Source: Halobacterium sp. R2-5 (GTDB lineage: Archaea; Halobacteriota; Halobacteria; Halobacteriales; Halobacteriaceae). Taken from it: a stretch of 64,000 nucleotides of DNA. Shown in pieces: positions 35,847 through 48,297 of this stretch (its first letter is position 1; every line of letters begins with the position of its first letter). The stretch spans positions 186,001 through 250,000 of the forward strand of contig NZ_JAANTH010000001.1 of NCBI RefSeq assembly GCF_011734195.1, given 5' to 3'. The notes beneath the pieces are model-generated. The model searched no databases and had not been told where the DNA came from. It was given only the letters and a program-made list of their open reading frames with translations. The position numbers and the translations under genes were made by a program.

Positions 35847-38054
35847 GTGGCCGCGAGCAACTCCCCGGAGTACATGCAGTTCTTCCCGAAGCCGTCGCCG
35901 TACGACAACCAGCGGGAGGCGATGGACGGCATCCGCGACGCCCTCGACGGCGGCCGGGACGTCCTCTTCGAGGGCGCCTGCGGCACCGGGAAGACCCTCG
36001 CCGCGCTCGCGCCGGCGCTCTCGCACGCCCGCGAGACGAACAAGACGGTCGTCATCACGACGAACGTCCACCAGCAGATGCGCCAGTTCGTCCGCGAGGC
36101 CCGCGAGATTCACGACGCCGCCCCGCTGCGCGCGGTCGTCTTCAAGGGGAAGGGGTCGATGTGCCACATCGACGTCGACTACGAGGAGTGCCAGGTGCTC
36201 CGCGACAACACCCACGAGGTCGTGGACGCCGAGCGCGACAAGCGCCAGCTCGAGGAGCGCCAGCAGGCCTTGCTGGAGGAGAGCCAGGACGGCGACAGCG
36301 AGGCCGCGGAAGCCCGCGAAGCGGTCTTGGAGGAGCTCGACTCCGTCGAAGACGAACTCGAGGACCTCCGGGAGGGCAACGTCTGCGAGCGCTACTACGA
36401 GAACCTCGTCGGGGACAACGACGAGTTCTACGAGTGGCTCTACGACGGCGTCCGCACCCCCGAGGACATCTACGACTACGCCGAAGAGCAGGGGCTCTGC
36501 GGGTACGAGCTCCTGAAGGACGGCATCGAGGGCGTCGACCTCGCGGTCTGCAACTACCACCACCTGCTCGACCCCGGGATCCGAGCGCAGTTCTTCCGCT
36601 GGCTGGGCCGCGACCCCGAGGACGTGGTGGTGGTGTTCGACGAGGCGCACAACGTCGAGGACGCCGCGCGCGACCACGCCGCGGAGACGCTCACGGAGAA
36701 CAGCCTCGACAGCGCGCTCTCCGAGCTGGAGGAAGTCACCGACGACCGCGGTGCCGCCGCCGAGCGCGTGCTGTCGGCGTTCCGGGACGCGCTCGTGGAG
36801 ACGTACGAAGACGCGTTCGGCCCGGGCGGCGACCAGTCGCTCGCGCGCTCGGAAGTCGACGGGAACTGGACGGACGTCCCCGTCGCGAACGAGGACCGCC
36901 GCGATGACCTGACGCTGGCGTTCCTCCAGCAGTACACGGGTCCCGGCATCAAGGAAGACGTCGACGACGCGCTCGCGCTCGGCGAGTACCTCGACGACGA
37001 GTACGACGAGGCCTACCGGAACGGCGAGACGACCACCCGCCGGGAGTGTTTCGTGCTGCAGGCGGCCGAATTCGTGGAGACGTACGTCGAGGACGGCGGC
37101 GAGCTCGGCCAGTACCCGACTGCGGCGGTACGCCGCGACGAGGGCACCGACGACGTCTACGGCCGCGCGGAGCTGTACACGTGCATCCCGCGGGACGTCA
37201 CGACGGACCTCTTCGACGCGGTGCACGCGAGCGTCCTGATGAGCGCGACGCTCCGGCCGTTCGACGTCACCGCCGACGTGCTCGGGCTCGACGACCCCGA
37301 GACGATGGCGTTCGGCCTCCAGTTCCCCGAGGAGCGCCGCCGGACGTTCGCGGTGGACACGGAGCCGCTGTTCTCCTCGAACCGCGACGACCCCGACACC
37401 CAGCGCGAGGTCGCGGGCGCGCTCCGCGACGCCGTCGAGTTCACGCCCGGGAACTGCCTGTTCTTCTTCCCGAGCTACGCGGAAGCCGAACGCTACCACG
37501 ATTTACTGGGAGACGTGAGCGCCGCGCGCTACCTCGACGAACCCGGCACGAGCGCCGAGGAGCTCCGCCAGACGTTCACCGACGACCGCAACGGCGTCCT
37601 GTTCACGTCGCTGTGGGGGACGCTCGCGGAGGGCGTGAGCTTCGACGGCGACGACGCCCGCACCGTCGCGGTCGTCGGCGTCCCCTACCCCCACCTCGAC
37701 GCGCGCGCCGAAGCCGTCCAGGACGCCTACGGCCGCGTGTTCGGCGACCGCGAGGACCGCCGCAACGAGGACGCCGGCTGGCGGTACGCCGTCGAGATTC
37801 CCACCGTTCGGAAGACCCGGCAGGCGATGGGCCGCGTGATTCGCTCCCCCGACGACTTCGGCGTGCGCATGCTCGTCGACCGCCGGTACACCAAGGAGAG
37901 CCGCACCGCGATGCGGAAGTACAGCGTGAACCCGACGTTCCCGCCGGAGGAGCGCCGCGAACTCGTCGACATCGACCCCGAGAAGCTCCGCGTGTCGATG
38001 CTGAACTTCTACACCGACCTCGACGCCTACGACGGCCAGCCACCTCGCCCATAG
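35847..38054 (+). CDS. XPD/Rad3-type Fe-S DNA helicase
   Basis: A 735-residue superfamily 2 helicase. Walker A is GACGTGKT (44-50), DEAH is at 265-268 (VVFDEAHNVED), and four cysteines for the 4Fe-4S cluster lie at C106, C115, C180 and C218. Between C115 and C180 is a long charged coiled-coil insertion (DAERDKRQLEERQQALLEES). C-terminal motifs: NCLFFFPSY, LFTSLWGTLAEGVSF, RKTRQAMGRVIRSPDD. GTG 35847 is preceded by TTTATAC at 30 nt. The role may be repair or recombination; it coexists with UvrB/UvrC. Confidence 0.93.
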   Translation: MAASNSPEYMQFFPKPSPYDNQREAMDGIRDALDGGRDVLFEGACGTGKTLAALAPALSHARETNKTVVITTNVHQQMRQFVREAREIHDAAPLRAVVFKGKGSMCHIDVDYEECQVLRDNTHEVVDAERDKRQLEERQQALLEESQDGDSEAAEAREAVLEELDSVEDELEDLREGNVCERYYENLVGDNDEFYEWLYDGVRTPEDIYDYAEEQGLCGYELLKDGIEGVDLAVCNYHHLLDPGIRAQFFRWLGRDPEDVVVVFDEAHNVEDAARDHAAETLTENSLDSALSELEEVTDDRGAAAERVLSAFRDALVETYEDAFGPGGDQSLARSEVDGNWTDVPVANEDRRDDLTLAFLQQYTGPGIKEDVDDALALGEYLDDEYDEAYRNGETTTRRECFVLQAAEFVETYVEDGGELGQYPTAAVRRDEGTDDVYGRAELYTCIPRDVTTDLFDAVHASVLMSATLRPFDVTADVLGLDDPETMAFGLQFPEERRRTFAVDTEPLFSSNRDDPDTQREVAGALRDAVEFTPGNCLFFFPSYAEAERYHDLLGDVSAARYLDEPGTSAEELRQTFTDDRNGVLFTSLWGTLAEGVSFDGDDARTVAVVGVPYPHLDARAEAVQDAYGRVFGDREDRRNEDAGWRYAVEIPTVRKTRQAMGRVIRSPDDFGVRMLVDRRYTKESRTAMRKYSVNPTFPPEERRELVDIDPEKLRVSMLNFYTDLDAYDGQPPRP

Positions 38055-38146
38055 CCTCCGTAGCGGGAGATAGCGCCCTCAGCAAGTCCAACAACACCTC
38101 GAAAGCCCCCGCGCCGTCGACTCCCGGGACTCGCTGCGCGCGCTCG

Positions 38147-38305
38147 CTGCTCACGGGTCGCTTCGCTCCCCGTTCGCGCAAACCGAGGCACTTCGCGCCT
38201 CGCTCCGCTCGCGTGCTTGCGTCGTCCGGGTTCGCCGACGGCACGGCCCCTTTCAGTCCCACCCGTAGCGGTTTGTCAGCCGGTAGCGGGCGGACCGAAA
38301 GGGGC
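38147..38305. repeat. Hairpin-rich convergent intergenic region (element copy E)
   Basis: The 313 nt between the XPD stop and the 2H gene hold no gene. 38147-38215 repeats the CTGCTCACGG ... CCGTTCGC ... hairpin phrase of the other arrays. GCCCCTTTCAGTCCCACCCG (38246-38265) is a near-perfect inverted copy of CGGGCGGACCGAAAGGGGC (38287-38305), a motif I recall as very common between haloarchaeal genes. A bidirectional terminator is plausible. Confidence 0.5.
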
Positions 38306-38367
38306 ACAGCCTCGGGGATCTCGAGGCGTCGAACTCGGGGACGGAACCGACAGCAGAATCGGCTGAC

Positions 38368-38895
38368 TCAAGCGGGAAGGGAGAGCGTGTCGACGCGTTC
38401 GCCGTACTCGGCGTCGTAGAGGTAGAGTTCGTCGATGGTCCACGTGACGGGGCCGACGTCGCGGCCGACGACGTTCTCGACGGCGCGGCGGCCGCGGAAG
38501 CCGTCGGCGTCCCGCGCGAGCGTGACGTGGGGGTCGTAGTCGTCGCCGCCCTCCATGACGGGGACGGGGTCGAACACCTGACAGAGGCGCTGGTGGATGC
38601 CGTGGAGGCCGGGGCTCTCGACGGCGAGATAGACGACCGGGCTGGAGCCGTTCGGCGGGTTCTCGAAGGACTGGACTTCGGAGACGCGCGCCTCGACGAC
38701 GGGCGCGCCGTCGAGGGCGTCTTTCGCGGTCTGCCACGCGGTGCGGAGCTGTTTGCGGTCGTCGGCGGGGACGCGCTTGACGAGCAGCGTCTGCTCGTGG
38801 CGCTCGCGGATGCGGTCGAACCCCGTCAGCGCCGGGCGGAGGTCGGCGGCGACCTCGTTGAGTTCGGCCGGCACCGGAGCGTTCACGCTGTACAC
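38368..38895 (-). CDS. 2'-5' RNA ligase-like 2H phosphoesterase
   Basis: A 175-residue 2H-fold protein. The second motif is intact (YDPHVTLARDADGF), but the first is degenerate (RHEQTLLVKRV instead of HxTx in the usual context), so activity on 2',3'-cyclic ends is uncertain. GTG 38895 opens MYSVNAPVPAEL, matching the family start. It is more divergent than thpR at 18318. Confidence 0.75.
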   Translation of the reverse strand: MYSVNAPVPAELNEVAADLRPALTGFDRIRERHEQTLLVKRVPADDRKQLRTAWQTAKDALDGAPVVEARVSEVQSFENPPNGSSPVVYLAVESPGLHGIHQRLCQVFDPVPVMEGGDDYDPHVTLARDADGFRGRRAVENVVGRDVGPVTWTIDELYLYDAEYGERVDTLSLPA

Positions 38896-38932
38896 GCGCC
38901 CTAGTCGGGAGTCGAGCGGGAAAGCGCTGACG

Positions 38933-39127
38933 TTAGATCTTGTCGAGCAGCCACAGCACGACCAACACGACGATGACGGCGCCGATGAGCGGTGGCGCGA
39001 GCCCGAGGAGGCCGCCGAGCACGCCGATGACGGCCTCCAGGATTTCGAGGGCGATCCAGACGACGACGAGCACGAGCACGATCTTGAGCAGGTCCTCGAC
39101 GTCGAGGCTACCGCGCGGGGAGGTCAT
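38933..39127 (-). CDS. 64-residue two-span membrane protein
   Basis: MTSPRGSLDVEDLLKIVLVL leads into one helix (about 14-40), a Gly/Pro turn (GGLLGLAPP) and a second helix (about 45-62) ending LLDKI. It resembles a conserved small haloarchaeal membrane family without known function. It lies upstream of the 2H gene on the same strand by 37 nt and could be co-transcribed. Confidence 0.75.
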   Translation of the reverse strand: MTSPRGSLDVEDLLKIVLVLVVVWIALEILEAVIGVLGGLLGLAPPLIGAVIVVLVVLWLLDKI

Positions 39128-39200
39128 GTGCGGTGGTTAGCAAACCACCGGGAAAAGCGTTCAGGCTCGCGTGTGGTGTGGTAGCGTGGATTCAGGAACG

Positions 39201-39206
39201 CTTATG
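39201..39206 (+). promoter_or_regulatory. Putative promoter of argGH with a long leader
   Basis: CTTATG in AACGCTTATGCCG is the best TATA-like element before argG. It is 28 nt before ATG 39232 but 215 nt before the argG ATG. The 25-35 nt window before argG has no A/T-rich element, so the argG transcript may carry a leader of about 190 nt. The remaining 39128-39200 sequence shows nothing else. Confidence 0.4.
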
Positions 39207-39231
39207 CCGCCGGAGCCAATTCTGGGAAGTA

Positions 39232-39339
39232 ATGACGCAGCCGCCGGTTCACGCCCGCCGCTCGCCCTCGGTGAGCCGCGGGGCCGCCGGCTGTCCGGCG
39301 TCCTCCCGTCGCGTGCCGCGACGACCGGGGTCCTTCTGA
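39232..39339 (+). other. Arg-rich leader ORF with a stop-codon hairpin before argG
   Basis: ATG 39232 to TGA 39337-39339 encodes 35 residues, seven of them Arg, including three RR pairs (HARRSPSVSR, SSRRVPRRPGSF). A perfect GGGGTC/GACCCC hairpin (39327-39332/39338-39343, loop CTTCT) contains the stop codon. A second hairpin, CGACG/CGTCG, lies at 39378-39393. The layout resembles a leader-peptide attenuator for arginine, but Arg codons are common by chance in GC-rich DNA. Confidence 0.35.
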
Positions 39340-39420
39340 CCCCACTACAGCTACATCCCTCGTTCTCGGTCTCGTATCGACGCTCGAACGTCGCGGCACA
39401 CACTACACACGGAACACACA

Positions 39421-40653
39421 ATGACGGAAGGAACGGTCGCGCTCGCCTTCTCGGGCGGGCTCGACACGACGGTCTGCGTACCGCTGCTGAAAGAGGAGTA
39501 CGGCTACGACGACGTCATCGGCGTCACGGTCGACGTCGGTCAGCCCGACGCCGAGTTCGCGGAGGCCCGCGAGACGGCCGACGCGCTCGGCGTCGAGCAC
39601 TACGTCGTGGACGCGAAGGCGGAGTTCGCCGACCTCTGCTTCGACGCGGTGCAGGCGAACGCCACCTACCAGGGCTACCCGCTGGGCACCGCGCTCGCGC
39701 GCCCGGTCATCGCAGAGGCGATTCTCGGAGTCGCCGAAGAGCACGACTGCGCGGCGCTCGCGCACGGCTGCACCGGGAAGGGCAACGACCAGCTGCGTTT
39801 CGAGGCCGTCTGGCGCGCCAGCGACCTCGAGGTCATCGCGCCGGTCCGCGAACTCGGCCTCACGCGCGAGTGGGAGATCGACTACGCCGCCGAGAAGGGG
39901 CTGCCGGTGGAGGCGGGCAACGACGGCGAGTGGAGCATCGACACGAACCTCTGGAGCCGCTCGGTCGAGGGCGGCCAGCTCGAGGACCCCGGCTACGAGC
40001 CGCCGGCGGACATCTACGACTGGACGGACGCTCCGGGCGACGAGACGGAGACCATCGACATCTCCTTCGAGAGCGGCGTCCCGGTCGCGGTGAACGGGAA
40101 CGAGATGGAGCCGGTGCCGCTCATCGAGTACCTGAACGACCTCGCCGGGAGCTACGGCGTCGGCCGCACGGACATGATGGAGGACCGCATGCTCGGCCTG
40201 AAGGTCCGCGAGAACTACGAGCACCCGGCGGCGACGACGCTGCTGACCGCTCACGAGGCGCTCGAACAGCTCGTGTTCACGAAGGACGAGCGCGAGTTCA
40301 GCCAGCAGATCAGCCAGCAGTGGTCCGAGAAGGCCTACGAGGGCCTCGTCGACCACCCGCTGATGGACGCGCTGAACGGCTTCCTCGCGGAGACCCAGCA
40401 GAAGGTCACCGGCACGGTCACCGTGAAGTTCGAGGGCGGGCAGGCCCGCCCGGTCGCCCGCGACAGCGAGTACGCGGTGTACTCCGCTGACGCCGCGAGC
40501 TTCGACACGGAGACGGTCAACGGCATCGAGCAGGGCGACGCGACGGGCGTGGCGAAGTACCACGGCTTCCAGTCGCGTCTCGCGAACGCGAGCAAGCCCG
40601 AAATCGCGCCGGACGGCGGCGCCGCGGGGTCGACGGACGGGGACGAGGAATGA
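39421..40653 (+). CDS. argG: Argininosuccinate synthase
   Basis: A 410-residue enzyme joining citrulline and aspartate with ATP. The PP-loop LAFSGGLDTTV is at residues 8-18; YVVDAKAEF, GYPLGTALARPVIA, HGCTGKGNDQ and NLWSRSVEGG are family signatures. ATG 39421 gives MTEGTVALAFSGG. Its end overlaps argH by 4 nt. It opens the arginine cluster, and its leader contains an Arg-rich small ORF. Confidence 0.97.
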   Translation: MTEGTVALAFSGGLDTTVCVPLLKEEYGYDDVIGVTVDVGQPDAEFAEARETADALGVEHYVVDAKAEFADLCFDAVQANATYQGYPLGTALARPVIAEAILGVAEEHDCAALAHGCTGKGNDQLRFEAVWRASDLEVIAPVRELGLTREWEIDYAAEKGLPVEAGNDGEWSIDTNLWSRSVEGGQLEDPGYEPPADIYDWTDAPGDETETIDISFESGVPVAVNGNEMEPVPLIEYLNDLAGSYGVGRTDMMEDRMLGLKVRENYEHPAATTLLTAHEALEQLVFTKDEREFSQQISQQWSEKAYEGLVDHPLMDALNGFLAETQQKVTGTVTVKFEGGQARPVARDSEYAVYSADAASFDTETVNGIEQGDATGVAKYHGFQSRLANASKPEIAPDGGAAGSTDGDEE

Positions 40654-42152
40654 GCGGGGAGGGCGACGGCACGGTGGTGCGCCGCGACCGCTTCAGCGGC
40701 GGCCCCGCGCGGTCGTTCCTCTCCTCGATGGACGCCGACGACCGCATCTTCGCGGCGGACCTCGCGGTCGACCGCGCGCACGTCGTGATGCTCGCCGAGC
40801 AGGGCATCGTCGACGACGGCGAGGCGGCGGCGATTCTGGGCGCGCTCGACGACGTCGAGGACGCCGGCTTCGACGCATTGCCGGACGGCGAGGACGTCCA
40901 CGAGGCCATCGAGACGGCGGTCGTCGAGCGCGTCGGCCCGGTCGGCGGGAAGATGCACACGGCGCGCTCGCGCAACGACGAGGTCGCGACCTGCATCCGC
41001 TGTCGCCTGCGCGAGGACCTGCTGGAAGCGCTCGACGCGGTGCTCGCGCTCCGCGGCGCACTCGCGGACGTCGCCGACGCGGAGGCAGAGACGGTGATGC
41101 CGGGGTACACGCACCTCCAGCCCGCCCAACCGACGACGGTCGCGCACTGGGCGCTCTCCTACGAGGGGACGCTCGCCCGCGACACCGGCCGGCTGCTGGA
41201 CGCGTTCGACCGCGCGAACCAGTCACCGCTGGGCGGCGCGGCGTTCGCGGGTACCACGTTCGACGTGGACCGCGAGCGCACCGCCGACCTCCTGGGCTTC
41301 GACGGCGTCGTGACGAACGCCACGGACGCGGCCGCGAGCCGCGACTTCCTGCTGGAGGCGGTGGCGGCGCTGTCCTCGGTCGCGGTGACGTGCTCGGGGC
41401 TCGCGGAGGACGTCGTGCTGTTCGCGAACCGCGGGTTCGTGGAGCTGAGCGACGACTACTCGTCGACGTCCTCGATCATGCCACAGAAGAAGAACCCGGA
41501 CACGCTGGAGCTGGTTCGCGCGACCGCGGGCGACGCGGTGGGCGCGTACACGAGCCTCGCGACGACGCTGAAGGGGCTGCCGCGGGCGTACAACCGCGAC
41601 CTGCAGCGCGCGACGCCGCACGCGTGGGGCGCCGCCGACGACATGACCGACGCGGTCGAGGTGGCCGCGGGCGCCGTCGCGACCGCGGAGTGGCCCGCCG
41701 AAGAACTGGAAGCCGCGGCCGGCGAGGGGTTCTCGACGGCGACCGGCGTCGCGGACGCGCTCGCGGCGGCGGGGATGCCGTTCCGTACGGCACACGAGAT
41801 AGTCGCGCTCGCTTCAGAGCAGAGCGAGACGCAACGCGCCTCGGAACACGCGAGCGGCGATAGCCGCGAGCAGGGCGCGGACCTCGACGCGGTGGACGCG
41901 GCGGCCCGCGAGGTGACCGGGAAGCCGCTGTCGGAGCTCGCCGACGCGGAGGTCGTGGCGGCGGCACTGGACCCCGCGACGAACGTCGCGCAGCGCGACT
42001 CGACGGGCGGCCCCGCGCCCGCGGCGGTGCGGGAAGCGCTCGCGGACGTGCGCGAGGAGATCACACTGGACGAGGAGACGGTCGAGAACCGCGAGTCGGC
42101 GCTGTCGGCGGCCGCCGACGACCTGGCCGCGGAGGTGGCGACGTATGAGTGA
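40650..42152 (+). CDS. argH: Argininosuccinate lyase
   Basis: A 500-residue fumarase/aspartase-superfamily enzyme releasing arginine and fumarate. Signature blocks: DVHEAIETAVVERVGPVGGK, HTARSRNDEVAT, YTHLQPAQPTTVAHW, and the flexible loop SSIMPQKKNPDTLEL with the catalytic serine. It starts within the argG stop (ATGA overlap). A 52-codon Arg-rich ORF begins within its last codons. Confidence 0.97.
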   Translation: MSGEGDGTVVRRDRFSGGPARSFLSSMDADDRIFAADLAVDRAHVVMLAEQGIVDDGEAAAILGALDDVEDAGFDALPDGEDVHEAIETAVVERVGPVGGKMHTARSRNDEVATCIRCRLREDLLEALDAVLALRGALADVADAEAETVMPGYTHLQPAQPTTVAHWALSYEGTLARDTGRLLDAFDRANQSPLGGAAFAGTTFDVDRERTADLLGFDGVVTNATDAAASRDFLLEAVAALSSVAVTCSGLAEDVVLFANRGFVELSDDYSSTSSIMPQKKNPDTLELVRATAGDAVGAYTSLATTLKGLPRAYNRDLQRATPHAWGAADDMTDAVEVAAGAVATAEWPAEELEAAAGEGFSTATGVADALAAAGMPFRTAHEIVALASEQSETQRASEHASGDSREQGADLDAVDAAAREVTGKPLSELADAEVVAAALDPATNVAQRDSTGGPAPAAVREALADVREEITLDEETVENRESALSAAADDLAAEVATYE

Positions 42153-42303
42153 CGCGGTGGCCGCGAGCAGCGAGCGCCACGCCGCGCCCGCAGCGGCCGC
42201 GCCGCGACGACCGCGACCGCCCCGACAGGGGCGAATAAACACTTCACTTACTATGGGTTCGGTTACGGTTGTTCTCCTCTCCTCGGCGTTTTCGCGCCGT
42301 TAG
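42145..42303 (+). other. Arg-rich small ORF between argH and argW
   Basis: ATG 42145, overlapping the argH stop region by 8 nt, opens 52 codons to TAG 42301-42303, with an Arg/Pro-rich part (APRRPRPPRQGR) and a C-terminal AFSRR. It lies in the leader of the argW operon, as the ORF at 39232 does for argG. It could be non-coding sequence that happens to be open. Confidence 0.25.
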
Positions 42304-42352
42304 TCGTTTCTTCAGTTCGTTTTATTTGTTTGACAGGTTCGGTTAGCTTAAG
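42256..42352 (+). promoter_or_regulatory. Promoter region of argWXCBDEF with a repeated 10-mer
   Basis: GGTTCGGTTA occurs at 42256-42265 and 42336-42345. The second copy abuts the TATA-like CTTAAG (42347-42352), 28 nt before argW ATG 42380. The region is A/T-rich (TTTTATTTGTTTG) in GC-rich surroundings. This indicates a second promoter within the arginine cluster, and the repeats may bind a regulator or activator. Confidence 0.55.
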
Positions 42353-42379
42353 TGTGTGTAGTGAGAAGGGGGAGTTGCT

Positions 42380-42544
42380 ATGAGCACGTGTCCCGAGTGC
42401 GGGTCGGAGCTGACCCTGCACGACGACCTGGAGGTCGGCGAGATCGTCGACTGTGGTACCTGCGGAACCGAGCTGGAAGTCATCGAAACCGACCCCGCGG
42501 TCCTCGACAAAGCCCCAGAGCTCTCCGAGGACTGGGGGGAGTAA
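42380..42544 (+). CDS. lysW: Amino-group carrier protein ArgW (LysW)
   Basis: A 54-residue acidic zinc-ribbon protein, MSTCPECGSELTLHDDLEVG, with zinc cysteines at C4, C7, C25 and C28. The C-terminus SEDWGE is the diagnostic EDWGE tail whose last Glu gamma-carboxyl receives the substrate amino acid. The carrier protects the amino group during ornithine synthesis, replacing N-acetylation. It is followed after one nucleotide by argX. Confidence 0.95.
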   Translation: MSTCPECGSELTLHDDLEVGEIVDCGTCGTELEVIETDPAVLDKAPELSEDWGE

Positions 42545-42545
42545 G

Positions 42546-43412
42546 TTGCGCGTCGGCATCCTGTACTCCCGGATTCGGAAGGACGAGAAGCTGCTGCTCG
42601 CCGAGCTCCGCGAGCGCGGCCACGACGTCGAGAAGATCGACGTGCGCAAGCACGGCTTCGGCCTCGACGGCACCGACGCCGCTATCGAGGACTGCGACAT
42701 CGTGGTCGACCGCTGCCTGGCGACCAGTCGCAGCAAGTACACCACGGAGTTCTGCGAGCACTACGGCGTCCCCGTCGTGAACAGCCCCGACACCGCGGCC
42801 GTCTGCGCGGACAAAGTGCGGACGAGTCTCGCGCTCTCGGAGGCGGGGCTCCCCACGCCCGACACCACGGTCGCGTACACCACCGAGAGCGCGCTCGACG
42901 TCGTCGAGGAGTACGGCTACCCGTGCGTGCTGAAGCCCGTCGTGGGCTCGTGGGGCCGCCTGATGGCGAAACTCGACTCGCGGAACGCCGCCGAGGCCGT
43001 CCTCGAACACAAGGCGACCCTCGGCCACTACGAGCACAAGGTGTTCTACGTCCAGGACTTCGTGGCGAAGCCGGGACGGGACATCCGCGTGGTCGCGCTC
43101 GACGGCGAGCCCGTCGCCGCGATGACGCGCTCGGGCGACCACTGGCTGACGAACGCCGCGAAGGGCGCCGAGACCGAGTCCTTCGAGGTGACCGACGAGG
43201 TCGCGGAACTCGTCGAGAAAGCCAGCGACGCGGTCGGCGGCGGCCTGCTCGGCGTCGACCTGATGGAGACCGGGGACGGCTACACCGTCCACGAGGTCAA
43301 CCACACGGTCGAGTTCAAGGCGCTGAACGACGCCAGCGACGTCGACGTGCCCGCCGCGGTCGTCGACTGGCTGGAGGCGAAAGCCGAGGCCGGCGTGGAG
43401 GTGGCGCCGTAA
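42546..43412 (+). CDS. argX: Glutamate--[LysW] ligase ArgX
   Basis: A 288-residue ATP-grasp ligase joining glutamate to the ArgW C-terminus. RVGILYSRIRKDEKLL (N-terminal domain), VNSPDTAAVCADK, YPCVLKPVVGSWGRLMAKLD, DIRVVALDGEPVAAM and VDLMETGDGYTVHEVNHTVEF are present; GSWGR and VEFKALN are typical of the LysX/ArgX group. It uses TTG 42546, one base after the argW stop; no nearer ATG or GTG fits. Since the surrounding genes make ornithine, glutamate is the expected substrate rather than alpha-aminoadipate. Confidence 0.9.
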   Translation: MRVGILYSRIRKDEKLLLAELRERGHDVEKIDVRKHGFGLDGTDAAIEDCDIVVDRCLATSRSKYTTEFCEHYGVPVVNSPDTAAVCADKVRTSLALSEAGLPTPDTTVAYTTESALDVVEEYGYPCVLKPVVGSWGRLMAKLDSRNAAEAVLEHKATLGHYEHKVFYVQDFVAKPGRDIRVVALDGEPVAAMTRSGDHWLTNAAKGAETESFEVTDEVAELVEKASDAVGGGLLGVDLMETGDGYTVHEVNHTVEFKALNDASDVDVPAAVVDWLEAKAEAGVEVAP

Positions 43413-44479
43413 TGGCCGTCGCGGAAGCCGACGACGGCGACGAGGCGAACGCCACCGCGACAGTCGTGGGCGCGAGCGGGTTCGCGGGCGGCGAGCTCCT
43501 GCGCCTGCTCGCCGGCCACCCCGAGTTCGCGGTGGCGCAGGCGACCAGCCGCGAGTACGCGAACAAGACCGTCGGCAGCGTCCACCCGAACCTCCGCGGG
43601 CTCGATTTGCGCTTCACGGAGCCGTCGGACCTCGACTCCGTGGACGTCCTGTTCGCGGCGGCGCCCCACGGCGTCTCCATGGAGCACGTCGACGAGTGGC
43701 GCGAGGTGGCGGACACCGTCATCGACCTGAGCGCGGACTTCCGCCTCGACACCGAGGCGCAGTACGACGACTGGTACGACGGCCACAGCGCGCCCGAACA
43801 CCTCGACGACGCGGTGTACGCGCTCCCGGAGCTCTCCCGCGACGACCTCTACGGCGCGGACCTGATCGCGAGCGGCGGCTGCAACGCCACCGCGACGATA
43901 CTCGGCCTGCTCCCGCTCGCGGAGGCCGGCGTCCTCGACGGCGCGGACGTCGTCGTGGACGTGAAAGTCGGCTCCTCGGAGGGCGGCGCGGGCGGCGGCC
44001 CGGCGTCCTCGCACCCCGAGCGCTCGGGCGTCGTGCGCCCGTACGCGCCGACCGGCCACCGCCACGAGGCCGAAATCGAGCAGTTCCTCGGGCTCTCCGT
44101 CTCGTTCACCGCGCACGCCGTGGACATGGTCCGCGGCGCGAGCGCGACCTGCCACGTGTTCCCCGACGGCCCCGTCTCGAAGGGCGACCTCTGGGGCGCG
44201 TACCGCGAGACGTACGACGACGAGCCGTTCGTGGAGACGGTCGCGGGCGGCAGCGGCGTCTACCGCTACCCCGAGCCGAAGGCCGTCGCCGGCACGAACA
44301 AGGCCGAGGTCGGCTTCGAGCTCGACCCGGGGAACGAGCGCGTCGTGACGTTCTCGGCCATCGACAACGTGATGAAGGGCTCCGCGGGGCAGGCCGTGCA
44401 CGCGGCGAACGTCGCGCTCGGCTTCGAGGAGACCGCGGGCCTCGACCAGCTCGGGTTACACCCGGTGGGAAGCCCATGA
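43412..44479 (+). CDS. argC: [LysW]-glutamyl phosphate reductase
   Basis: A 355-residue dehydrogenase. Nucleotide-binding loop TVVGASGFAGGELLRLL near 17-33; active-site cysteine C157 in ASGGCNATAT; GTNKAEVGFELDP and NVMKGSAGQAVHAANV near the end. It reduces carrier-bound glutamyl phosphate to the semialdehyde. Its ATG overlaps the argX TAA by one base and its stop overlaps argB by 4 nt. Confidence 0.95.
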   Translation: MAVAEADDGDEANATATVVGASGFAGGELLRLLAGHPEFAVAQATSREYANKTVGSVHPNLRGLDLRFTEPSDLDSVDVLFAAAPHGVSMEHVDEWREVADTVIDLSADFRLDTEAQYDDWYDGHSAPEHLDDAVYALPELSRDDLYGADLIASGGCNATATILGLLPLAEAGVLDGADVVVDVKVGSSEGGAGGGPASSHPERSGVVRPYAPTGHRHEAEIEQFLGLSVSFTAHAVDMVRGASATCHVFPDGPVSKGDLWGAYRETYDDEPFVETVAGGSGVYRYPEPKAVAGTNKAEVGFELDPGNERVVTFSAIDNVMKGSAGQAVHAANVALGFEETAGLDQLGLHPVGSP

Positions 44480-45312
44480 CTGTAGTCGTCAAGATCGGCG
44501 GCGCGCGCGCCGTCGACCCGGAGGGCGCGGTGACGGACGTCGCGCACCTCGCGGTCAACGACGAGGACGTCGTGGTCGTCCACGGCGGGTCGACGGCGGT
44601 CGACGACGCGCTCGAACAGATGGGGAAGGAGCCGGAGTACGTGGAGACGCCGTCGGGCGTCACCGGCCGGTTCACGGACGCGGAGACGATGGACGTCTTC
44701 GAGATGGCGATGGGGAAGGTGAACACCGACCTCGTCGCGGCGTTCGAGAACGCGGGCGTGCCGGCGGTCGGCCTGAACGGCGTCGACGGGAAGCTCCTGT
44801 CGGGCCCGCGGAAGTCCGCGGTGCGCGTCGTCGAGGACGGCAAGAAGAAGATTCGCCGCGGCGAGCACTCCGGCACCATCGAGGAGGTCAACACCGACCT
44901 GCTGGAGACCCAGCTGGACGCGGGCTACGTGCCCGTGGTGTCGGTGCCGATGTTCGCGGCGGAGAGCGGCGACGCCGAGGAGTGGACGCCCGTGAACGCG
45001 GACGCGGACCGCGCGGCGGCGGCCGTCGCGGGCGCGCTCGACGCCACGCTCGTCGTGCTGACGGACGTCGAGGGCGTCTACGCGGACCCCGACGACCCGG
45101 ACTCGCTCATCGACGAGGTGGTGACCCCCGCGGACCTCGACGGCGCGAAGGACGCCGCGGAGGGGTTCATGACGAAGAAGGTGATGGCGGCGACCGAAGC
45201 CCTCGAAGACGGCGCCGAAGAGGTCGTGGTGGCGGACGCGAACCGCCGCGACCCCATCGTCGCCGCGCTGGAGGGCGGGGGCACGCACTTCCGCCCGGAG
45301 GCGCTCTCATGA
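44476..45312 (+). CDS. argB: [LysW]-glutamate kinase
   Basis: A 278-residue amino-acid kinase: VVKIGGARAVDPEGAVTDV (ATP loop), VVVVHGGSTAVDD, VTGRFTDAETMDVFEM, GLNGVDGKLL, PVNADADRAAAAVAGAL, VLTDVEGVYADPDD and MTKKVMAATEAL. It phosphorylates the glutamate side chain on ArgW. Located between argC and argD with 4-nt overlaps on both sides. Confidence 0.95.
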   Translation: MTVVVKIGGARAVDPEGAVTDVAHLAVNDEDVVVVHGGSTAVDDALEQMGKEPEYVETPSGVTGRFTDAETMDVFEMAMGKVNTDLVAAFENAGVPAVGLNGVDGKLLSGPRKSAVRVVEDGKKKIRRGEHSGTIEEVNTDLLETQLDAGYVPVVSVPMFAAESGDAEEWTPVNADADRAAAAVAGALDATLVVLTDVEGVYADPDDPDSLIDEVVTPADLDGAKDAAEGFMTKKVMAATEALEDGAEEVVVADANRRDPIVAALEGGGTHFRPEALS

Positions 45313-46421
45313 GCGGGTTCGTCTTCGGCGAGAAGCCCATCCAGATCGAGTCCGGCGAGGGGCCGTACGTCTACGACGACGGCGGGAACGAGTACCTCGA
45401 CGTGGGCGCGTCGTACGCGTGCGCACCGGTCGGCCACTGCCACCCCGACGTGGTCGAGGCCGTCGAATCCCAGGCCAGCGACCTGCTGTTCGTGCAGGGC
45501 TCGTACCCGACCGAGACGCGGACCGCGCTGTACGACCGCCTCGGCGAGTTGGCGCCCGGCGCGATGGACAACGTCTGGCTCTGTAACTCGGGGACGGAGG
45601 CCAACGAGGCGGCGCTGAAGTTCGCGCGCCACGCGACCGGCCGCGAGAAGGTGGTCGCCGCCAAGCGCGCGTTCCACGGCCGCACGCTCGGGTCGCTGGC
45701 GGCGACGTGGAAGCAGAAGTACCGCGAGGGGTTCGCGGTCCCCGACAACGTCGAGTTCGTCGACTACGGGGACAGCGAGGCGCTCGCCGACGCCGTCGAC
45801 GAGGAGACGGCCGCGGTCCTGCTGGAACCGGTGCAGGGCGAGGGCGGCGTCCACCCCGCGCCAGAGGGCTACCTGCAGGCCGCCCGGGACGCCTGCGACG
45901 ACGCGGGCGCGGCGCTGGTCTTCGACGAGATTCAGACCGGGCTCGGACGCACGGGCACGCTGTGGGCGTGCGAGCAGGCGGGCGTCGTGCCGGACGCGCT
46001 CACCGTCGCGAAGGGGCTGGGCAGCGGCCTCCCCGTCGGCGCGACGCTGGTCGCGGACTGGCTCGCCGAGGACAGCGGCGACCACGGCTCGACGTTCTCC
46101 GGCGGGCCCGTGCCCTGTGCCGCGGCGCTCGCGACACTCGACGTGCTGGAGGACGACGACCTCGCGGCGAACGCGGCGAGCGTCGGCGGCTACCTCCAGG
46201 AACAGCTCGCGGAGCTCCCCGTTCGGGACGTCCGCGGCGAGGGGCTCATGATCGGCGTCGAGGTGAAACGGGGGGCGAACCGGGCGCTGAAGTCGCTGGC
46301 GCTGAACCACGGGATTCTCGCGCTCCCCGCCGGGCGGACCGTAGTGCGGCTCTTACCGCCGCTAACCGTCACCGAGTCACACGCCGACCGCGTGGTCGAC
46401 GCGCTCGCCGAGGAGCTATGA
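45309..46421 (+). CDS. argD: [LysW]-glutamate-semialdehyde aminotransferase
   Basis: A 370-residue class III PLP aminotransferase. YVYDDGGNEYLDVGASYA start, CNSGTEANEAALKFAR (92-107), the pyridine-nitrogen aspartate D206 in VFDEIQTGLGRTG, and the PLP lysine K235 in TVAKGLGSGLP. It converts the carrier-bound semialdehyde to ornithine using glutamate. Slightly short for the family (about 380-400) because of a compact N-terminus. Confidence 0.95.
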   Translation: MSGFVFGEKPIQIESGEGPYVYDDGGNEYLDVGASYACAPVGHCHPDVVEAVESQASDLLFVQGSYPTETRTALYDRLGELAPGAMDNVWLCNSGTEANEAALKFARHATGREKVVAAKRAFHGRTLGSLAATWKQKYREGFAVPDNVEFVDYGDSEALADAVDEETAAVLLEPVQGEGGVHPAPEGYLQAARDACDDAGAALVFDEIQTGLGRTGTLWACEQAGVVPDALTVAKGLGSGLPVGATLVADWLAEDSGDHGSTFSGGPVPCAAALATLDVLEDDDLAANAASVGGYLQEQLAELPVRDVRGEGLMIGVEVKRGANRALKSLALNHGILALPAGRTVVRLLPPLTVTESHADRVVDALAEEL

Positions 46422-47428
46422 CGCCACGGGAGCTCCTCGAAGCGCTCGTCTCGACCCCCTCCGTTTCGGGTGCGGAATCCGAGGCCGCGGCCGTGCTCGT
46501 GGACTACTTCGAGGCCCACGGGCGCGAGGCGCGGATTGACGACGCCGGCAACGTCCGCGCGCCCGGCGACGACAGCGTGCTCCTCACGAGCCACGTCGAC
46601 ACTGTCCCCGGACACGTCGGCGTGCGCGTCGAGGACGGCGAACTCTGGGGACGCGGCAGCGTCGACGCGACCGGGCCGCTGGCCGCGATGGCCGCGGCGA
46701 GCGTCGAGACCGGCGCGTCGTTCGCGGGCGTCGTCGAGGAGGAGACGACCTCGGCGGGCGCGCGCCACCTCGTCGAGGATCGCGCGGAGCCCGACGCCGT
46801 CGTGAACGGCGAGCCCTCTGGCTGGGACGCGCTCACGCTGGGCTACCGCGGGCTGGCGTCCGCGACCTACGAGGTCGCCACCGAGAGCGGGCACTCCTCG
46901 CGCCCGGAGCCGAACGCCGTCCAGCTCGCGACCGCGTGGACCGAGCGCGTGCAGGCGGCGTTCCCCGACGACGAGACCGTCTTCGAGTCGGTGACCGTCA
47001 AGCCCGTCTCCTTCGACGGCGGGCTCGCCGAGGACGGCCAGGCGGTCGAGGCGACCGTCGACGTGCAGTTCCGCCTGCCGCCGGGCACCACCGCTGAAGA
47101 CGTCCGCGAGACGGTCGCGGACTGCACGACCGAAGGGTCGGTCACGTGGACGGAGTCGATTCCGCCCGTGATGTCGAGTCCCCGTACCTCCGTCGCGGGC
47201 GCGCTCCGCGCGGGCATCCGCGAGGCGGGCGGCGACCCGACGCACCTCCGGAAGACCGGCACGAGCGACGCGAACATCTACGCCGGCGCGTGGGACTGCC
47301 CGGTGGCCACGTACGGCCCCGGGGACTCCGCGTTCGACCACGCGCCCGACGAACGCATCGACCTCGCCGCGTTCGACCGCGGCGTCGACGTACTCACCAC
47401 CGCAGCAGACAGGCTATGCACTTCCTGA
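46418..47428 (+). CDS. argE: [LysW]-ornithine hydrolase
   Basis: A 336-residue M20-family metallo-hydrolase. Metal ligands appear at LLTSHVDTVPGHV (His and Asp), WGRGSVDATGPLAAM, VVEEETTSAGARHL and HAPDERIDL. It releases free ornithine from ArgW, the last carrier-dependent step. It starts within the argD stop (ATGA) and its end overlaps argF by 13 nt, the deepest overlap of the operon. Confidence 0.93.
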   Translation: MTPRELLEALVSTPSVSGAESEAAAVLVDYFEAHGREARIDDAGNVRAPGDDSVLLTSHVDTVPGHVGVRVEDGELWGRGSVDATGPLAAMAAASVETGASFAGVVEEETTSAGARHLVEDRAEPDAVVNGEPSGWDALTLGYRGLASATYEVATESGHSSRPEPNAVQLATAWTERVQAAFPDDETVFESVTVKPVSFDGGLAEDGQAVEATVDVQFRLPPGTTAEDVRETVADCTTEGSVTWTESIPPVMSSPRTSVAGALRAGIREAGGDPTHLRKTGTSDANIYAGAWDCPVATYGPGDSAFDHAPDERIDLAAFDRGVDVLTTAADRLCTS

Positions 47429-48297
47429 CAATCGACGACCTCACGACGGAGCAGTTGGCCGGCGTCGTTGACGACGCGGCCGCGTTGAAGCGCGCGCAAG
47501 CCGACGGCATGCCCCACGAGGCCCTCCCCGGGCGCTCGCTGGCGATGCTGTTCGAGAAGCCCTCGACGCGAACCCGGGTGAGCTTCGAGGTGGGGATGAC
47601 CCAGCTCGGCGGCCACGGGGTCTTCCTCGGTGACGACGACATCCAGCTCGGCCGCGGGGAGCCCGTCGCGGACACCGCTCGCGCGCTCGGCCGGTACGTC
47701 GACGCGGTGATGGCGCGGGTCTTCGACCACGGCGACCTCGAAGAGATCGCCGCGCACGCCGACACTCCGGTCGTGAACGGCCTCACTGACGACGCCCACC
47801 CGTGTCAGGCGCTCGCGGACCTCCTGACGCTCCGCGAGGTCGTCGGGGACTCGGGGACGGTGGCGTGGGTCGGCGACGGCAACAACGTCGCGGCGTCGTT
47901 CACGGTCGGCGCCGCGATGATGGGCTACGACGTCAACGTCGCCACGCCCGCCGGGTACGCGCTCGACGACTCCGTGATCGCGCGCACCGAGGAGCACGGC
48001 GACGTGACCGTAACCACGGACCCGGAGGCCGCCGTCGAGGACGCCGAGGTCGTCTACACGGACGTCTGGGTGAGCATGGGTCAGGAGGACGAGCGCGAGC
48101 AGCGCCTCGACGCCTTCGAGGGGTTCCAGGTGGACGAGGGCCTGCTCGGGGACGCCGCCTTCATGCACTGCCTGCCCGCGAACCGCGGCGAGGAGGTCAC
48201 GGCGGACGTCATCGACGGCGAGCAGTCCGTGGTCTGGCAGCAGGCCGAGAACCGCCTGCACGCCCAGAAGGCGCTGCTCGTCGAGCTCGTGGACTGA
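47416..48297 (+). CDS. argF: Ornithine carbamoyltransferase
   Basis: A 293-residue transcarbamoylase. Carbamoyl-phosphate site EKPSTRTRVSFEVGMTQLGG (about 48-67), MARVFDHGDLEEIA, NGLTDDAHPCQALADLLT (HPCQ motif), DGNNVAASF and the ornithine-binding MHCLPANRGEEV near the C-terminus. It makes citrulline, which ArgG and ArgH then turn into arginine. It is the last gene of the arg operon. Confidence 0.97.
   Translation: MHFLTIDDLTTEQLAGVVDDAAALKRAQADGMPHEALPGRSLAMLFEKPSTRTRVSFEVGMTQLGGHGVFLGDDDIQLGRGEPVADTARALGRYVDAVMARVFDHGDLEEIAAHADTPVVNGLTDDAHPCQALADLLTLREVVGDSGTVAWVGDGNNVAASFTVGAAMMGYDVNVATPAGYALDDSVIARTEEHGDVTVTTDPEAAVEDAEVVYTDVWVSMGQEDEREQRLDAFEGFQVDEGLLGDAAFMHCLPANRGEEVTADVIDGEQSVVWQQAENRLHAQKALLVELVD

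Follow-up and report, generated by a model that had tools for sequence, protein, structure and literature searches.

Arginine-rich leader ORFs ending at a conserved hairpin precede argG in Halobacteria and resemble bacterial attenuators

Results

The arg genes of Halobacterium sp. R2-5 and their upstream regions

The window, by which we mean the whole 64,000-nucleotide stretch of Halobacterium sp. R2-5 DNA that was analysed, contains argG and argH and, downstream of these, an arg cluster that begins with argW and argX. The features that concern us are as follows:

39201-39206, + strand: TATA-like promoter box CTTATG of the leader transcript, 31 nt upstream of the leader ATG
39232-39339, + strand: Arg-rich leader ORF, probably leaderless, 35 codons, ending CGA CGA CCG GGG TCC TTC TGA
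39307-39326, + strand: putative Arg control-codon stretch CGT CGC GTG CCG CGA CGA CC, directly 5' of the hairpin
39313-39323, + strand: 5' strand (GTGCCGCGACG) of a possible 11-bp outer stem, overlapping the Arg codons (minimum-energy and centroid fold)
39327-39343, + strand: stop-codon hairpin GGGGTC (39327-39332)-CTTCT-GACCCC (39338-39343), its stem covarying between genera
39344-39360, + strand: pyrimidine/A-rich tract 3' of the hairpin, nearly G-free across species, with one G in the window
39389-39399, + strand: 3' strand (CGTCGCGGCAC) of the possible outer stem, just upstream of argG (fold and duplex tests)
39421-40653, + strand: argG, argininosuccinate synthase (NCBIfam TIGR00032 / NF010392)
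40650-42152, + strand: argH, argininosuccinate lyase (NCBIfam TIGR00838)
42145-42303, + strand: second Arg-rich leader ORF, 52 aa, its ATG overlapping the argH stop; CGA-rich in relatives
42218-42233, + strand: hairpin CGCCCC-GACA-GGGGCG within the second leader ORF
42347-42352, + strand: TATA-like box CTTAAG, 33 nt upstream of the argW ATG
42380-42544, + strand: argW/lysW carrier protein gene, first of the downstream arg cluster, followed by argX (NCBIfam TIGR01206)

Direct reading of the sequence bore out what the first-pass annotation had described ahead of argG: a 35-codon ORF at promoter spacing from the box, whose peptide (MTQPPVHARRSPSVSRGAAGCPASSRRVPRRPGSF) has seven Arg residues including three RR pairs, and a stop codon (TGA, 39337-39339) within a perfect 6-bp hairpin. 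The annotation had also placed another hairpin before argG, and there is indeed more hairpin potential downstream of the one at the stop. Because the ATG lies 31 nt after the box, leaderless translation of the leader is likely; its last 12 codons hold CGT, CGC, CGA and CGA for Arg. We screened roughly 785 short ORFs of 15-60 codons, taken from both strands of the window, for three features: an AT-rich box, four or more Arg among the final 12 codons, and a hairpin of 5 bp or longer enclosing the stop. Apart from the argG leader, whose stop position is represented by two nested starts, one ORF alone has all three. Adjoining the leader is a divergent hydrophobic ORF of 64 aa (MTSPRGSLDVEDLLKIVLVLVVVWIALEILEA..., 38933-39127, - strand), with similar sequence at the same place in congeners and no NCBIfam match.

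The layout is conserved across the order

Conservation of the leader ORF had been named beforehand as a test by which the proposal could fall. Besides the window, whose argG is 90-93% identical to that of several Halobacterium species, the 127 argG loci that we compared came from 12 congeners, 13 genomes elsewhere in the family and 101 more from across the order. The layout of box, short ORF, Arg-rich end and stop at a hairpin was present in 118 of the 127, from 13 families: ORF, Arg codons and stop hairpin are thus kept across most Halobacteria, with Halobacterium, Haloferax, Halorussus, Natrinema, Halogeometricum, Halobaculum, Halarchaeum and Natrialba among the carriers. Leaders start with ATG (116 loci) or GTG (two), run to 18-76 codons and mostly have a box (homologous forms TTTAAG/TTTAATA) 29-33 nt ahead of the start. 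The stop lies inside the hairpin in 107 carriers and just after it in 11, counts that carry some selection because about 20 hairpins were placed by eye where the script missed them. This placement is reached with differing stop codons and loop lengths (locus L010, for example, uses TAG with one extra base); in several Haloferax species (the copies read were from species other than H. volcanii) the leader is MATRSTFATFAPLRAAAVRPRRRAL and its stop falls within GGCCCTTTAGGGCC.

The element is absent from all five argG loci of families f2, f10 and f12. Two loci have kept the hairpin and lost the stop within it, by a change of TGA to CGA (L068) or by a shift out of frame (L078); L075 retains a degenerate trace, and L102 was not counted as a carrier. 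In Halobacterium salinarum (L013/L295), the leader is retained but its stop has shifted past the hairpin, and no argW was found in the vicinity of argH; control in this species may thus be relaxed.

We built a covariance model of the Arg tail and hairpin from 41 sequences, including the window, and searched 59 whole genomes with it. The window site is the best match in its own 3-Mb genome (E=6e-5, the window being among the model's 41 sequences), and the argG leader is the best site in most genomes that have a clear match, other matches being weak. Rfam covariance models, including T-box, riboswitch and attenuator-leader families, gave no match up to E=1 in positions 38000-48000 of the window.

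The Arg codons, and not the peptide, are conserved

Arg accounts for 36.5% of the last 12 leader codons and for 3.6% of argG codons (118 loci). The codon chosen is itself unusual: CGA supplies 67% of the Arg codons in the leader tail, 16% of those further up the leader and 1.7% of those in argG, and among the 110 Arg codons of six arg genes in the window there is no CGA at all (two further coordinate sets with frame errors were left out of this count). We regard the earlier caution that Arg codons arise by chance in DNA so rich in GC as answered. Assuming that a ribosome reaches 12 nt from its A site, about three Arg codons per leader are, on average, placed so that a ribosome stalled there reaches the hairpin arm.

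The stem of the hairpin varies among loci (GGGGTC, GGGCC, GGCCC, GGGGC, CGGGC), each form with a matching 3' arm; its covariation score is 0.235 against 0.100+/-0.021 in shuffled alignments, none of 500 shuffles scored as high, and the signal drops when the pairing partner is slid along. A hairpin so conserved could be a binding site for a protein or an RNA. The ORF would then be incidental, since DNA this rich in GC contains many CGN triplets by chance, and some Arg is also found when the tail is read in its other two frames (2.1 and 1.1 per 12 codons). However, the ORF frame holds 4.4, the distance from promoter to ATG is fixed, the stop falls in the hairpin by way of different stop codons and loop lengths, and both the CGA enrichment and the cognate Ile/Val, Phe and Trp leaders that precede other genes (see below) speak against an incidental ORF; we regard a mere binding site as highly improbable.

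The phase of the hairpin arm relative to the ORF is 2, 1 or 0 in 75, 37 and 6 loci, respectively, and in all of them the Arg codons keep to the frame of the ORF, which indicates that codons rather than a peptide are conserved. With the phase, the ending of the leader changes from RPGL to RRAF, RRAR or RRRAL. This bears on a further reading, in which the nascent Arg-rich chain stalls the ribosome at the stop when arginine is present, as in the fungal arginine attenuator peptide. An Arg-rich C-terminus is indeed universal, and many leaders end in RPG plus one or two residues, but the RPG stems from the hairpin arm and is lost in the other frames, the peptide varies widely in sequence and in length (18-76 aa), and the preference for a rare codon is left unexplained, all of which makes arrest by the peptide very unlikely.

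Outside the Arg run, no residue is conserved. Comparison of five close relatives places variable sites at codon positions 1, 2 and 3 in the ratio 7/4/5, without synonymous bias, and on this ground selection on the leader at the peptide level was rejected. The ORF has its own promoter, and haloarchaea have many small leaderless genes, as would befit an independent small-protein gene that merely happens to lie upstream of argG, but the lack of conserved residues and of synonymous bias, together with the tight linkage of the ORF to argG, leaves us giving that idea almost no credence.

Sequences downstream of the stop-codon hairpin

The leader RNA of the window folds more stably than its dinucleotide shuffles (z=-3.4), and the 17 nt after the hairpin are free of any G in 81 of the 118 loci. 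Runs of five or more T after the hairpin are not in excess (0 of 26 loci in family f1, with 0.3 expected, and 8 of 92 elsewhere, with 6.8 expected); a classical archaeal U-tract terminator is therefore not seen. Within f1, the Arg-codon stretch pairs with the region downstream beyond what shuffles yield (mean z -1.8), and only 4 of 301 permutations with swapped partners reach this level; outside f1, such pairing is weak (mean z -0.74), and no alternative, antiterminator-like pairing stands out. In consensus folding of f1 leaders from the hairpin to argG, no more than three pairs of the stop hairpin survive, owing to poor alignment of the downstream part. We therefore rate the outer stem as possible only, its basis being the single-sequence fold and the duplex tests, with modest backing at the family level in f1.

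These observations are relevant to the idea that the leader senses Arg-tRNA post-transcriptionally, a stalled or terminating ribosome affecting how fast the mRNA decays or how accessible the argG start is, instead of transcription termination. The missing T-run signature, the f1 pairing and the position of the outer stem's 3' strand just before argG in the window are in its favor. However, the layout of ORF and hairpin persists outside f1, where the pairing is weak; many genomes there seem able to start argG at a promoter of its own; and ilvB has the same layout, with hairpin and pyrimidine tract far upstream of the gene. We consider such a route unlikely, although less so than the readings dismissed above.

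Outside f1, argG itself is often preceded, at the distance expected of a promoter, by an AT-rich box; in the many genomes with this promoter-like box, the leader would govern only part of the argG transcripts. A common motif, GTTAGC followed by a TTTAAG/TTTAAT box, precedes this proximal promoter in many non-f1 genomes (L032-L125). It also stands before argW (window 42301-42352) and is possibly a shared operator.

A second Arg-rich ORF precedes argW

An exception to the rule that the covariance model matches best at the argG leader pointed to a further element, an ORF whose ATG overlaps the argH stop. It occurs in the window and was found in 71 of the 77 loci that have argH ahead of argW. CGA makes up 55% of its Arg codons, compared with 4% in argH; its Arg content by itself does not single out the frame (0.233, against 0.225 in frame +1), and the case for this ORF therefore lies in its CGA bias. 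In Halobacterium, the ORF passes one hairpin and ends in AFSRR after another (loci L163-L182, L291-L370). A CGA-rich ORF thus seems to stand at the head of each of the two arginine-synthesis transcription units.

Cognate leaders before other amino-acid genes

We surveyed other amino-acid genes in 24 genomes. Upstream of ilvB, a leaderless ORF occurs in about 20 of the 24, mostly ending in LIIVGV, IIVGA or GIVGA (set L207-L229, with endings such as IVGIVGA; the leader of the R2-5 genome itself is L226, near G000:C2:315544-317199), and its stop is usually in or at a strong hairpin of the TGTAGGGGTCTAGCCCCTACA type; hairpin and pyrimidine tract lie well upstream of the gene. Here too the codons are skewed, Ile being encoded by ATT in 71% of cases (6% in ilvB) and Val by GTA in 42% (0% in ilvB), although GTA is partly fixed by the hairpin. 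About 15 of the 24 genomes have a leaderless ORF of 25-29 aa upstream of pheS that ends in GFGFFFA or a like sequence; a strong hairpin at the stop is mostly lacking, and GGCGGA..GAAACC recurs after the stop (set L184-L206; own genome L196, near G000:C1:285467). At 10 of 11 loci of the second trpS, there is an upstream leaderless ORF with WRW or similar and a recurrent ADS (L238-L247), and many of these have their Trp codons flanked by the complementary stretches TCCGCTC and GAGCGGA.

No cognate leader was found before hisG, argS or the archaeal trpS, and no Trp leader within 1.5 kb before trpE, where the first gene of the operon may lie further upstream. In a cross-tabulation over the 24 genomes, an Arg-rich leader with hairpin precedes argG at 19 of 24 loci, and each of the other gene sets has 0-2 such loci.

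Discussion

Taken together, these comparisons make it reasonably probable that the element ahead of argGH is a ribosome-mediated attenuator that senses the charging of the tRNA-Arg reading the rare codon CGA. By sequence comparison, the role of the leader as a sensor is well supported: an ORF at promoter spacing, a stop set in a covarying hairpin, CGA control codons, wide conservation and cognate leaders before other genes all emerge from that comparison. Translation of the ORF, termination, and which way the system responds to arginine are what we infer from this arrangement.

RNA polymerase would start just past the box at 39201, and a ribosome would load straight onto the leaderless ATG. 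With ample arginine, it would pass the CGA codons, reach the TGA, where it would cover the hairpin, and depart, after which the hairpin could form, in f1 perhaps along with the outer stem that includes the Arg codons; hairpin and pyrimidine tract would then lead to early termination and little argGH. Were Arg-tRNA short, the ribosome would stall at CGA and mask the 5' arm of the hairpin, and transcription would enter argGH. In f1, pairing of the Arg-codon stretch with the region before argG would add a translational layer. Termination could be intrinsic or act through FttA/aCPSF1 on untranslated RNA: both routes are conceivable, since in Haloferax volcanii 59% of transcripts ended in vivo at one natural hairpin sequence (PMC7237163) and since termination by FttA/aCPSF1 is proposed to compete with coupled ribosomes (PMC8116511, PMC11616081).

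In our view, Halobacteria are likely to own a family of leader-peptide attenuators serving Arg (argG, argW), Ile/Val (ilvB), Phe (pheS) and Trp (second trpS). These would rest on leaderless ORFs, often with rare control codons, and amino-acid control through leader translation would then occur in Archaea and be broadly used there. If so, archaeal ribosomes gate gene expression in an amino-acid-specific manner, and the leaders offer a natural way to assay, in haloarchaea amenable to genetic work, both the coupling of transcription to translation and the termination that depends on FttA. Because named Haloferax species carry the arginine element, the existing dRNA-seq and ribosome-profiling data of that genus could bear on it directly. 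The first-pass annotation knew of no described arginine attenuator in haloarchaea, and the open-access literature yielded none; nor did that literature, to which our search was confined, contain a precedent for an archaeal leader-peptide attenuator, although an earlier report may exist in subscription papers.

The annotation had likened the leader to two kinds of system, of which the bacterial one is the better fit. In the fungal arginine attenuator peptide (the arg-2/CPA1 uORF), a conserved peptide arrests ribosomes at high arginine. Although both are upstream ORFs serving arginine synthesis genes, the haloarchaeal leader is not of the fungal type because no peptide is conserved; what is conserved are Arg codons, mostly CGA.

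Leader-peptide attenuation is textbook regulation in bacteria, where ribosome-mediated attenuators include the trpL, hisL, leuL, pheST and ilv leaders. The likeness to these stands: there is a short leader ORF with clustered cognate codons, often rare, and a hairpin before biosynthetic genes that a stalled ribosome would alter, and in part even the amino acids and genes agree (Ile/Val for ilvB, Phe for pheS). However, the haloarchaeal case is archaeal, its ORF is probably leaderless, its stop lies inside the hairpin and the amino acid sensed would be arginine; moreover, neither a conserved antiterminator hairpin nor a U-tract was seen. The element shares the ORF, the control codons and the hairpin of attenuators and lacks their U-tract, and folding of the hairpin would depend on the ribosome; with its response to starvation likewise conjectural, we call it attenuator-like and not a proven member of the class.

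Some attenuators of Actinobacteria have no classical antiterminator. These organisms, unlike haloarchaea, are bacteria with bacterial termination machinery, but they resemble our case in that leader peptides regulate amino-acid genes by attenuation in GC-rich genomes (PMC1262725). For the long 5'-UTRs of Haloferax volcanii, a 2016 study lists uORFs of 23-26 aa before a tryptophan-tRNA ligase gene and pheS, to which it assigns no role (PMC4983044, Table 2). The list does not include argG, and the section that contains it proposes no amino-acid sensing, attenuation or hairpin; the two uORFs are consistent with the Trp- and Phe-rich leaders found here.
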